A stretch of DNA of 32,498 nucleotides from an uncultured Gammaproteobacteria bacterium (GTDB lineage: Bacteria; Pseudomonadota; Gammaproteobacteria; Arenicellales; JAANXG01), in the NCBI GenBank assembly GCA_947259175.1, contig CAMYKW010000033.1:1-32498 (forward strand), given 5' to 3'. Each line of letters starts with the position of its first letter. Positions within the stretch are counted from its first letter, which is position 1. Below are positions 1 through 32,498 of this stretch, in pieces. Position numbers and translations under genes: made by a program. Below the pieces are notes generated by a model. The model saw only the letters and a list, made by a program, of their open reading frames with translations. It ran no database searches and was not told the origin of the DNA.

Positions 1-109
1 CGCAGGGCTCGTGCGGCTGCGCGCCGCGCCTGGAGCGAGACCCATAGCGAGCTATGGGTCGAGTGAAGGCCAAGCGCAGATGTGCGAGAACCAGCCAGGG
101 CCGGGATAG
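1..109. other. gene-free left edge with a perfect hairpin
   Basis: No convincing gene lies here. Positions 39-47 and 52-60 form a perfect 9-bp hairpin with a CGAG tetraloop, and the pentamer GCGAG or TCGAG recurs at 35-39, 47-51 and 59-63. The stretch around it is rich in G, C and short dyads, which suits a structured RNA or the end of a mobile element more than protein-coding DNA. The family is not recognised. A reading frame from 82 to 321 crosses the repeats and has no protein-like character. Confidence 0.4.
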
Positions 110-211
110 CCCAGCTACTATTCTCAGCAATCCACACCAGGAATTTAAGCTGTCTCTTCATAGAATTTACGTATCGAGTCTTTCCGGTGCATGCCAGGAA
201 TAGTAGCTGGG
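110..211. repeat. 14-bp perfect inverted repeat with 74-nt spacer
   Basis: The arm at 110-123 (CCCAGCTACTATTC) is the exact reverse complement of 198-211. The right arm belongs to the core of the dispersed repeat described at 141-235, so the left arm looks like a partial copy of that core in opposite orientation. The arrangement could fold into a long stem-loop or mark an element end. No open reading frame of plausible function lies between the arms. Confidence 0.75.
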
Positions 212-235
212 CGCCTGGTGAGAAATGCGGGCTAG
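141..235 (+). repeat. dispersed repeat, left copy
   Basis: This 95-bp stretch matches the reverse complement of 32400-32493. By hand alignment there are 11 mismatches and one single-base gap, about 87% identity, and positions 198-235 are identical over 38 bp. The conserved part faces inward, toward the genes. No transposase is encoded in or beside it. It may be a MITE-like or RNA-associated mobile repeat, or an end of a larger element cut by the window edge; the family is not recognised. Confidence 0.85.
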
Positions 236-25689: not shown

Positions 25690-26085
25690 GGCGAGAGCCA
25701 GCCTGTAAGCCGGGTTCTGTCGCGGACAGTCATTCATCTGGGACAGGCGTCACCGCCTGCCTCGAGCGACCTACCCGGACCCGGTGCGGGCCACACCCGT
25801 GGGTCCCTATGCGGTCTTGCTCCAGGTGGGGTTTACCCTGCCACGGACGTTACCGTCCGCGCGGTGCGCTCTTACCGCACCTTTTCACCCTTACCGTCCA
25901 CCTACCCGCGATCGGCTCTCCGGCCCGGCACCTGGGCCCTGAACCGCCCGAGGGTAGATGGCCGGCGGTATATTTTCTGTGGCACTTTCCGTCGGCTCGC
26001 GCCGCCCAGGCGTTACCTGGCACCCTGCCCTGTGGAGCCCGGACTTTCCTCCCCCGCGGGGGCGACTGCCCGGCTGACTCTCGCC
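25690..26085 (-). ncRNA. rnpB: RNase P RNA (type A)
   Basis: The catalytic RNA that removes the 5' leader of pre-tRNA, about 396 nt. P1 is a 14-bp helix between 26072-26085 and 25690-25703. The conserved elements occur in order on the minus strand: GAGGAAAGTCCGGGCTCCAC, the ACAGAAA core segment, GGTAAGGGTGAAA, GTGCGGTAAGAGCGCACC and AGATGAATGACTGTCC near the 3' end. The P15 region keeps a GGU that would pair with the tRNA CCA end. All major type A parts appear present. Between rsmI and mraZ, in the same direction as both, is also its position in Pseudomonas. Confidence 0.97.
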
Positions 26086-30540: not shown

Positions 30541-31019
30541 GTTCGAGCGCGGACAAAATCGTTGATGATCCGGCACGGCTCGAAACGCTGCTGAGCGTAC
30601 TGGCGCGGCCCCTGGTATTTACCAACGGTTGCTTCGATATCCTGCACCGAGGGCATGTCGCGTATCTCGAACAGGCCGCAGCGCTGGGAAACAGTCTGGT
30701 GATCGGCATCAATGACGATGCCTCGGTGCGGCGTCTGGACAAGGGTGGCGAGCGTCCGATCAATCCCCTCCCGGACCGGGCGGCGGTGCTCGCCGCGCTC
30801 GCGTGCGTCGATCTCGTCGTCCCCTTCGGCGAAGACACACCGCTGTCATTGATCGTGCGGGTACAACCGGACTTTCTGGTAAAAGGCGGCGATTGGCCCG
30901 CAGATCGGATTGTCGGCGCAATAGAGGTACAGGAACGCGGTGGGCAGGTGCGCAGCATTCCGATCCGGTATGAACGCTCCACCACCGAATTGATAAGGCG
31001 GATTCGCGGTGATGCCTGA
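30537..31019 (+). CDS. rfaE2: heptose 1-phosphate adenylyltransferase RfaE2 (stand-alone)
   Basis: A 160-residue nucleotidyltransferase that activates D-glycero-beta-D-manno-heptose 1-phosphate with ATP. The N-terminal [21 protein letters not shown] carries the HxGH nucleotide-binding motif, and [20 protein letters not shown] and DFLVKGGDW are typical. In E. coli this is the C-terminal half of bifunctional HldE; here it stands alone, so the kinase half (RfaE1) must be elsewhere in the genome. The start is TTG at 30537, overlapping the dolP stop as TTGA with no strong ribosome site, hence probably coupled. Confidence 0.93.
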
Positions 31020-32403
31020 TTTACCCGCCAACTTCGAGCGTCGCGTCCGGGACGCGGTCGGTGACCATCTGGTGCTCATCGACCCCGCTGATACATGGAC
31101 CTACGGATACGACAATTCTCGCAAACACCAGGCACCGGACATGGTGGTATTTGCGACGTCCCATGACCACGTTGTGAATCTGGTTCGCCTGTGTAATGAA
31201 TTCCATGTGCCTATCGTCGCGCGCGGCAGAGGCACCGGCACCACCGGCGGCTGCATCCCGAAGCGACACGGCGTTGTGTTGTCGCTGGAACGCATGAACC
31301 GCATCGTGCGCATGGATGCCGCCAACCGCGCGATTACCGTCGAACCGGGGGTGCTCAATCAAACGGTGCAGGACTGTGCCGGCGAACAGGGTTTCTTCTG
31401 GCCGCCGGACCCCAGCAGCGGCGCGTTCTGCACCATCGGAGGAAATCTTGCCTTCAATGGCGCCGGCCCGCGTGCGGTAAAATACGGCACACCGCGCGAG
31501 AACATTCTTGGTCTCAAGGGGGTGACCGGGGACGGAGCGGAGATTCATACCGGTTGTTACACGACCAAGGGGGTCGTGGGCTACGATCTCACGCGATTGA
31601 TCGTCGGTTCCGAGGGCACCCTGGCGATCATAACCGAGGCCGTGCTCAAATTGACTCCCCTTCCAGAGGCGAAGCGCACGCTGCAAGCCATCTACCATGA
31701 TATGCACAGCGCCGTACAGGCGGTGGTGCGGTTGATGAGCCAACCCATCACGCCGTGCGCGCTGGAGTTTATCGACGGTCACGCAATCGATGTCATTCGC
31801 GACTACTCCAGGGCGGCGCTACCCAGCGACGCCGGTGCGATGTTGATTATCGAGGTCGATGGACCGGCCGCGGCCATGGACGCGGCCGCTGCTACGCTGT
31901 CCGGTGCCGCCAGTGGCGACGGGCTGGTGTCATTGAAAACCGCCGAGAGCGAGCAGGAAGTTGCCGCACTATGGGACACCCGCAAGGCGTTGTCTCCCGC
32001 GCTGCGGAATATTGCGCCCAACAAGTTGAATGAGGATGTGGTGGTGCCGGTGTCCAAAATCCCCGCATTGATTACCGGCCTCGATGAATTGAGCCGCGAG
32101 TTTGGAATTCCCATCGTCAATTTCGGGCACGCGGGGAACGGTAACATACACGTCAATCTGCTGTACGACACCCAGGATCCGGCGCAGGAGCGTAACGCAC
32201 GCCCGTGTCTCGACCGGGTATTTGATCTGGTGGTCGGTTTGAACGGCACGCTATCGGGGGAGCACGGTGTCGGACAAGAGAAACGCGATTACATCACCAA
32301 GGAGATCGACCCGGTCACCCTGGATCTGATGCGGCGCATCAAGCGCGAGTTCGATCCCAATGGATTGCTCAATCCTGACAAGATATTTCCGCACAGCGGC
32401 TAG
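31009..32403 (+). CDS. FAD-linked oxidase, GlcD / D-lactate dehydrogenase family
   Basis: A flavoprotein of 464 residues, likely oxidising a D-2-hydroxy acid such as D-lactate or glycolate. The FAD-binding PCMH domain spans about 38-217 ([53 protein letters not shown]). The C-terminal oxidase domain has the [13 protein letters not shown] and [14 protein letters not shown] motifs and ends [15 protein letters not shown]. There is no iron-sulphur extension and no glcE or glcF beside it, so the exact substrate is open. The start is GTG 31009 or the next ATG at 31012, overlapping rfaE2. The TAG stop at 32401-32403 lies inside the terminal repeat. Confidence 0.92.
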
Positions 32404-32493
32404 CCCGCATTTCTCACCAGGCGCCCAGCTACTATTCTTGTTAAGCACCGAAAAGACTCATACGATAATTCTACGAAGACACATCGTAAATTC
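32400..32493 (-). repeat. dispersed repeat, right copy (inverted)
   Basis: Reverse-complement match of 141-235: 38 identical bases at 32400-32437, then diverging outward, about 87% over 94 bp by hand alignment. The conserved core begins at the stop codon of the FAD oxidase, whose TAG is part of the repeat. Positions 32494-32498 are too few to assign. No transposase or RNA gene is visible at this edge. Confidence 0.85.
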
Positions 32494-32498
32494 GAACA

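Follow-up and report, generated by a model that had tools for sequence, protein, structure and literature searches.

REP and REPIN sequences are palindromes of 20–40 bp that carry a tag sequence and have a RAYT transposase; REP hairpins are recognized by their Y1 transposases. ERIC sequences are small, dispersed, structured repeats of enterobacteria, and neither they nor the bcr families are known outside narrow host groups. Insertion sequences of the IS1380 family encode a DDE transposase (Pfam DDE_Tnp_1_4) that acts on double-stranded ends. They are prokaryotic relatives of piggyBac.

The cited passages on REP and REPIN sequences describe dispersed palindromic intergenic repeats able to act as RNA or DNA hairpins (PMC3733652, PMC3116915) and likewise put REPs at 20–40 bp (PMC3733652). 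For the Bacillus cereus group, the relevant section of PMC3446304 presents bcr1–3 as small, MITE-like repeats dispersed in UTRs and intergenic regions, and reports conserved secondary structures for bcr10 and bcr18; a passage of PMC3110155 mentions ERIC as an enterobacterial repeat. High-copy MITEs termed hupL and dsrA are described in part of an account of the gammaproteobacterium Thiomargarita nelsonii: the hupL MITE has a 10-bp direct repeat and a 19-bp inverted repeat, and there its authors found no likely ISfinder parent, while the dsrA MITE has TATAG direct repeats (PMC4853749). In the cited sections on piggyBac, IS1380 is the outgroup of the trees and the target is TTAA, with CTAA and TTAG among rare variants (PMC10813416). 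A target duplication of 5 bp is given for Paracoccus IS1247 in a passage of PMC3281130.

Here we analyse a repeat found at both ends of a 32 498-bp stretch of DNA, hereafter the window, which is an entire contig (C33) of a gammaproteobacterial genome of 4.18 Mb in 121 contigs. The repeat resembles IS1380 insertion sequences in its terminal inverted repeat (TIR) pattern, CCYGSATWT..CAC, and its 4-bp YTAR flanks (measured on copies L201, L259/L273/L281 and L260), but it has no transposase gene, measures 110–355 bp rather than 1.6–1.8 kb and contains a structured core that is missing from the insertion sequences examined. Like bcr and ERIC it is small and dispersed in UTRs and intergenic regions; unlike them it occurs in many genera between varied transposon ends, and its sequence and hosts differ. 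It is distinguished from REP and REPIN sequences by 17-bp TIRs, target duplications, IS1380-type ends and a larger size. The hupL and dsrA MITEs are set apart from its YTAR duplication and its terminus CCCGCATTTCTCACCAG by their description, not their sequence. No published account joining IS1380, MITE and a CTAG target was found in a literature search whose scope excluded subscription journals and ISfinder.

Results and discussion

The window ends inside two copies of a multi-copy element

The original prediction, made from sequence alone, held that the same repeat stands in inverted orientation at both ends of the window. A BLAST search of positions 90–260 against the genome of origin does return 32400–32493 on the minus strand, and the 87% identity over 141–235 is consistent with the 11 mismatches and one gap that had been counted. 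In an inverted-repeat search of the window, 176–235 and 32400–32459 pair as a 60-nt inverted repeat with 92% complementarity, the longest reported. The 38-bp identity nearest the genes is exact: 198–235 is the reverse complement of 32400–32437.

This fixed stretch had been taken for a functional or recent core, as in a mobile or RNA element. The mobile, RNA-like character stands, as described below; the fixed 38 bp as functional core does not. They are made up of the target flank CTAG, the 17-bp TIR CCCGCATTTCTCACCAG and a further 17 bp in which the first arm of a hairpin module starts. This is not where the structured core lies; as originally delimited, the repeat takes in just part of the element (Table 1). 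The core is present in the left copy and missing from the right fragment. Complete copies of the left copy's build in the same genome measure 262–263 bp. The core, here called domain 1, was recovered again as C33:1–94 (72.5 bits) when the whole genome was searched with covariance model R2. The order of the modules suggests that the sense strand of the right copy is the minus strand.

Table 1. Features of the two element copies and their neighbours in the window, with mini-elements found in other stretches
Feature	Position	Strand	Remarks
Left element copy	1–231	+	5' end lost at contig start; + is the better-folding (sense) strand
Structured domain 1, truncated	1–109	+	Covariance-model positions 18–127; cmsearch with R2, 91.7 bits, E 3.4e-21
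Domain 2b (second hairpin module), 5' arm GCCCAGCTACTATTC	109–123	+	Read off the sequence; partner arm 198–212
Domain 2b, 3' arm GAATAGTAGCTGGGC	198–212	+	Read off the sequence
Left TIR, 17 bp (CCCGCATTTCTCACCAG on the − strand)	215–231	−	TIR pattern match
Left CTAG, one copy of the duplicated 4-bp target	232–235	.	Partner beyond contig end
Nudix/ThiE-like gene	330–1355	−	Adjoins left copy
GlcD-like gene	31009–32403	+	Stop codon is the target TAG; adjoins right copy
Right CTAG, one copy of the duplicated target	32400–32403	.	32401–32403 is the TAG stop of the GlcD-like gene
Right TIR, 17 bp, CCCGCATTTCTCACCAG	32404–32420	+	TIR pattern match
Right element copy: TIR and part of domain 2b	32404–32498	−	Ended by contig end; strand suggested by module order
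Mini-elements	L098:1352–1398; L196:2605–2657; L123:2382–2443; L157:5462–5527

How often does the repeat occur? In the genome of origin the BLAST query has 62 matches. The 22-bp TIR pattern CCTAGCCCGCATTTCTCACCAG, with up to three mismatches allowed, matches 110 times there and its reversed control not at all, so the repeat is multi-copy, as foreseen. A tally picked by hand among 100 of these 110 matches contains at least 18 contig ends with a TIR match no more than 260 bp away, at least 14 of them within 110 bp. Given the number of TIRs and their proximity to contig ends, we conclude that the contig forming the window stopped in one copy at each end, much as the original prediction supposed. 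The assembly would have been unable to pass the repeat, so that the window ended inside two element copies.

There is practically no chance that the repeat is an assembly or adapter artefact, or one confined to two contig ends. It is true that the two copies occupy the very ends of the window and that runs of N interrupt four others. However, many complete copies with target duplications lie inside contigs, and copies occur in other genomes, including single-contig ones (a Terriglobia chromosome for the TIRs, G239 for domain 1); the match counts given above refute a two-copy repeat. The runs of N lie inside copies L022, L031, L047 and L065 of the same genome and are scaffolding gaps in the repeat.

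The ends and target duplications are of IS1380 type

The anatomy of the element was read from 60 stretches of the genome of origin together with the window. This sample contains 36 two-ended copies, defined by two TIRs less than 500 bp apart and measuring 110–355 bp, and 31 single TIRs, two of them the window's. Target-site duplications, which the original prediction had proposed looking for, are present in most two-ended copies: identical 4-bp sequences of YTAR type stand outside the TIRs in 26 of the 36 (CTAG/CTAG in 22, TTAG/TTAG in L028 and L063, CTAA/CTAA in L075 and TTAA/TTAA in L072). Since the flanks of L028, L063 and L075 are not palindromic, they represent a true direct duplication of YTAR. 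Flanks are unequal in the other 10 copies (L023, L024, L064, L068, L069, L070, L074, L076, L078 and L079).

An empty site was found for one insertion. When the flanks of L028 are joined, they align through the junction in the congeners G005 and G001 (73% identity, 12-nt gap). L028 gave the only clear spanning match among the three insertions queried: the best matches of the joined L063 flanks (in G001 and G003) extend just 15–16 nt beyond the junction, and the joined L043 flanks match on either side with none across. The element is thus short, non-coding, bounded by TIRs, multi-copy and flanked by a target duplication, with an empty site in a relative, the features by which a MITE is recognized. 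At their length the two-ended copies carry no transposase of their own, as an autonomous insertion sequence would.

The TIR CCCGCATTTCTCACCAG is akin to the ends of several IS1380 copies, namely CCCGCATTTCTCACCG (right end of L258), CCTGGATTTCTCACCG (L201) and CCCGCATATCTCACCA (L259). L201, a 1736-bp IS1380 of the congener G004, has CCTGGATTTCTCACCG at both ends and CTAG/CTAG flanks. L258, of the same family, ends in CCCGTATCGCTCACCG and CCCGCATTTCTCACCG; the first 15 nt of the latter being those of the MITE TIR, its CTAG/CTTG flanks are not clean and its transposase has two stops. The three intact copies of G040 (L259, L273 and L281) end in CCCGCATATGTCACCA and CCCGCATATCTCACCA, with TTAG/TTAG flanks for L259 and CTAG/CTAG for the other two. 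L260 has ends CCCGGATATTTCACCA and CCCGGATGTTTCACGA and flanks TTAG/TTAG. In the genome of origin itself, the resident IS1380 (L021) ends in CCCGGATATTGCACGA and CCTGGATATTGCACGA with flanks TTAG/TAGC, a duplication that is not clean; one core copy there, L334, has an end, CCTGGATATTGCACCA, close to CCTGGATATTGCACGA, and its other end is decayed. With the NCBIfam model for the IS1380 transposase, L201 scores 403 bits and L021 405 bits (cut-off 180). The MITE thus shares with IS1380 a related TIR and the same kind of 4-bp target duplication. Among the IS1380 copies found, none matches the 17-bp MITE TIR exactly at both ends.

From the TIRs, the YTAR duplications, the IS1380-like ends and the empty site in two congeners it follows that the repeat is mobile, as had been suggested, and we conclude with high confidence that it is a non-autonomous (MITE-like) IS1380-type transposon. 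Presumably an IS1380-type transposase does the moving. Such a DDE enzyme, supplied in trans, would excise the element and insert it at a YTAR site, in most cases CTAG, whose 4 bp would be duplicated.

Where is the transposase encoded? Relatives of the L201 enzyme occur in 16 of 109 genomes of the order, the genome of origin included. The screen for a parent insertion sequence covered 41 TIRs without a near partner (loci L022–L200), with 40 stretches from Acanthopleuribacter and Terriglobia outside it. At 35 of the 41 an open reading frame of at least 200 codons lies within 2.2 kb inward; Pfam found no transposase among these 35 frames, nine of which could not be assigned to any family at E 1e-5. 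A tblastn search of the unpaired-TIR loci with two IS1380 transposases gave no match. An IS1380 transposase above the cut-off is present in 5 of 18 carriers, and in 5 of 27 in a second set. Most carriers tested thus lack an enzyme above the cut-off, for example Acanthopleuribacter pedis, and the mover there is either absent or unknown. The 10.8-Mb genome of this isolate (G145) has 668 TIR matches with up to two mismatches (335 forward, 333 reverse; controls 0 and 1) and no IS1380 match.

Some of the smallest forms deserve mention. In A. pedis (L217–L236), CCCGCATTTCTCACAAG accounts for most one-mismatch TIRs among the matches listed, and mini-elements of 58 bp composed of two TIRs recur. The 3-kb blocks repeated in Acanthopleuribacter were discarded as candidates; they are 100% duplicates between two pairs of stretches. 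Other mini-elements, of 47–66 bp, are barely more than two TIRs with YTAR-like flanks (Table 1). In Verrucomicrobia RA.bin27 the TIR occurs on an element some 67 bp long that lies beside ordinary genes (L166:4491 and L146:3405); beyond it, further near-identical sequence follows in both copies.

The core has a conserved fold

In complete copies of 240–263 bp the TIR is followed by domain 1, about 127 nt that fold into stacked helices with GA-rich internal loops, and then by a variable second domain. The latter comprises some 85 nt in many copies; the type found in the window, domain 2b, is a hairpin of about 100 nt with 15-bp arms. This hairpin is placed within domain 1 in L049, L079 and L023 and is inverted in L025. 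Short copies look like deletions between modules. By eye, an ACA..CTGTAT-like motif recurs directly after domain 1 across genera (for example L341, L345, L350 and L353).

We aligned 31 domains chosen by hand (alignment A4), 10 of them from the genome of origin and the others from further gammaproteobacterial MAGs, from Acidobacteria (a Terriglobia chromosome among them) and from a MAG named Candidatus Versatilivorator vitaminiformans. They were drawn from 44 candidates through an alignment of 36 (A3); copies similar to others, copies that carried insertions or folded oddly, and one read in the wrong orientation were left out. A conserved secondary structure across copies had been proposed as something to look for, and it is there: 27 of the 33 consensus pairs have changed on both sides. 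Paired cells amount to 92.0%, against 71.4 ± 0.8 in shuffled alignments; 197 cells are changed on both sides, against 58.7 ± 6.2; and covariation is 0.562, against 0.197 ± 0.012 for shuffled alignments and 0.070–0.126 for slid structures. None of 500 shuffles reaches the pairing, the double changes, the covariation or the 27 pairs, and 11 reach the number of further pair types. As shuffling ignores phylogeny and the alignment tested is also the one that yielded the structure, these figures are not probabilities. Between the arms, internal loops with conserved bases persist as invariant unpaired columns.

Two comparisons point to one strand. For A4, RNAalifold computes −35.3 kcal/mol when the sense strand is folded and −13.9 when the antisense strand is. 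For 16 interiors of the 173–189-bp class the values are −29.4 and −6.1; this alignment (A1) served for the strand comparison and for covariance model R1 only, as RNAalifold missed its middle helices. We also counted single G-T and A-C mismatches in helices, using folds in which G-U was forbidden so that the count is strand-neutral, and give one figure for the fold of either strand. The G-T:A-C ratios are 35:10 and 40:5 in the 176-bp class (n = 15) and 22:5 and 20:4 in the 240-bp class (n = 27); the excess is weak in copies from the same genus as the window (8:4 and 9:4, n = 22) and absent or weak in other sizes (13:14 and 20:11, n = 19). The count covers 83 of 116 copies, those with a tied orientation signature being excluded. 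The list of orientation motifs was picked after the folds had been seen and the copies are related, so the p-values are no more than indicative.

The compensatory changes, together with the excess of G-T over A-C on one strand, make it seem that the core is selected as a folded single strand. We have high confidence in the conserved fold, which appears to be selected mainly on one strand. Could the arms instead have been corrected against each other? Long inverted repeats undergo correction, and the modules doubled or inverted in the genome of origin (L049, L079, L023 and L025) would suit an account in which the copies are deletion derivatives of an insertion sequence whose arms are matched during replication, by template switching or gene conversion, with no selection on the fold. 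But correction acts on both strands and predicts equal numbers of G-T and A-C, contrary to the ratios in the 176- and 240-bp classes, and the loops with conserved unpaired bases have been retained between the arms. Model R2, moreover, has no match in the IS1380 loci L201, L258, L259 and L260. We regard this account as very unlikely.

A second alternative concerns the nature of the strand. The RNA-like character implied by the original prediction is borne out by the compensatory changes and the strand bias, which by themselves do not distinguish RNA from single-stranded DNA. The same pattern would result from a hairpin of DNA that becomes accessible on a single strand at replication or in the course of transposition, is recognized there in the manner of REP hairpins, and serves movement and not expression; in predicted folds the TIRs close the base of the hairpin, and the sense strand of neighbouring genes is not preferred (see below). 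Against it, the IS1380 family works on double-stranded ends and has copies that lack such a core: in five copies the 3' non-coding parts have fold z-scores of −1.9 to 1.1, compared with −5.0 and −7.1 for two elements. The core is therefore not required for the transposase on its own ends. We consider a DNA hairpin unlikely, and that the folded strand is RNA is our conclusion with moderate confidence. The same z-scores leave unsupported the idea that the core derives from the 3' non-coding region of IS1380.

A search of Rfam, also suggested at the outset, yielded no family for the core, conserved as its structure is. With Rfam 15, 18 loci gave a single tRNA at the gathering threshold, three loci gave four weak matches (E 2.9–8.9) at E up to 10, and the window gave RNase P only. 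The two covariance models are thus a gain for a family without an Rfam 15 match here.

One core is found between different ends

The exact TIR preceded by TAG is present in at least 115 stretches of the genome contig collection searched, from Gammaproteobacteria, Acidobacteria, Myxococcales, Planctomycetes, Nitrospira, Verrucomicrobia and others. With one mismatch it occurs in 12 of 145 genomes, the genome of origin included. Searched with R2, which was built on the 240/263-bp class, domain 1 was found 53 times in the genome of origin and in 15 of 60 relatives. A search of the class that applied stricter filters and scored few candidates in each genome found it in 42 of 369 gammaproteobacterial genomes (35 of 272 genera). 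Both genome counts include the genome of origin. R1, built on the 176-bp class, matches copies in Acanthopleuribacter (best E 7e-9) and also in Acidobacteria, Planctomycetota and gammaproteobacterial MAGs. Neither model significantly recognizes the class of the other. Viral contigs searched with the exact pattern, and plasmids and phages searched by blastn with one 263-bp copy, gave no match.

Domain 1 is not tied to one kind of end. At 20 loci in G007, G011 and three congeners it stands between other ends, such as CCCGCATATTGCACC or CCTGCATATTGCACCA, with flanks that are mostly YTAR. Among 20 loci from 19 other genomes, 15 have varied IS1380-like end repeats (for example CCCTCATATCTCACC, CCTGCATATTGCAGC and CCCGAATAATTCACC), L352 and L354 have no credible end repeat and L343 is cut off. 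The clearest case of a swap, despite worn ends, is L318 in the genome of origin, which has ends CCGGATATTGCACC and CCGAACATTGCACC and no clean target duplication. Its core is 93% identical to that of L075, which has ends CCCGCATTTCTCAGCAG and CCCGCAGTTCTCACCAG; L075 in turn is only 80% identical to L026, L064 and L078, whose ends are of its own kind. As one core lies between different ends even within a single genome, cores and ends have been exchanged. The best explanation of these sequences is that the core would be the persistent unit, with core and ends recombining.

A further step is possible, and we take it tentatively. The core may be a mobile structured RNA that spreads by capturing active IS1380 (piggyBac-like) ends and swaps ends while keeping its fold, in effect an RNA-defined satellite of a transposon family. 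Its hosts would be Gammaproteobacteria and Acidobacteria, and a look-alike class would occur in other phyla. The interiors of MITEs are usually thought to be filler; here compensatory changes, strongly biased toward one strand, keep the interior while the ends vary in transposase specificity. The element thus lets selection on the folded core of a non-autonomous bacterial transposon be put to the test, and it accounts for assembly breaks and for many intergenic repeats seen in environmental genomes.

Domain 1 lies between less fitting, unusual end repeats in L358 (G472, AACMCGGATAATCCAT) and L359 (G481, GTGGCCTGYAACGGAT), possibly another transposon family carrying it.

Gene context and possible function

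Simple ORF calls, not gene predictions, placed 115 of 136 copies: 40 lie between convergent genes, 13 between divergent and 62 between codirectional ones. The excess of convergent over divergent sites (sign test against equality, p 0.0003) holds for the genome of origin (7:3), for congeners and family (9:2), for other taxa (15:7) and for Acanthopleuribacter and Terriglobia (9:1). Codirectional copies show no preference for the sense strand, with 4 sense and 10 antisense in the genome of origin and 5:4 in a second set; in the window, both neighbours read into the antisense strand of the element. This distribution fits a role in 3' regions; purifying selection would leave an avoidance of promoters in any case.

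Of 33 copies in the genome of origin, 15 have a target whose TAG serves as the in-frame stop of an open frame of at least 100 codons, compared with 13 of 51 other CTAGs (p 0.10); pooled, the figures are 39 of 100 and 133 of 473 (p 0.04). With so weak an enrichment, we rejected the targeting of gene stop codons as a rule.

What would the core do? Most probably, and as the best explanation we have, the repeat is a non-autonomous IS1380-type element whose structured core would act in cis at the 3' regions of genes. Copies, mostly at gene ends, would be transcribed into 3' regions and fold there as a stable hairpin, which would render the insertion harmless or protect the end of the transcript. 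Our confidence in any given function is low. Alternatively, the core could be the gene of a trans-acting small RNA that is carried along by IS1380-type ends and acts on a host protein by titration or regulation. Its copy number in the genome of origin, its conserved unpaired GA-rich loops, its compact fold and its breadth among gammaproteobacterial genomes would suit such a gene; yet the copies adjoin gene ends and numerous R2 matches are partial or low-scoring, and we think a small RNA gene distinctly unlikely.

In one case an insertion seems to supply the end of a protein: the YhdP-like frame at L027:801–1601 (minus strand) has its last 40 or so codons inside an element copy, whose domain-1 match spans 803–934. 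Apart from the element, the window contains an RNase P RNA at 25690–26081 on the minus strand (Rfam RF00010, 315.8 bits), which lies within what we take to be a cell-division and cell-wall cluster (secA, lpxC, ftsZ, ftsA, murC and others).
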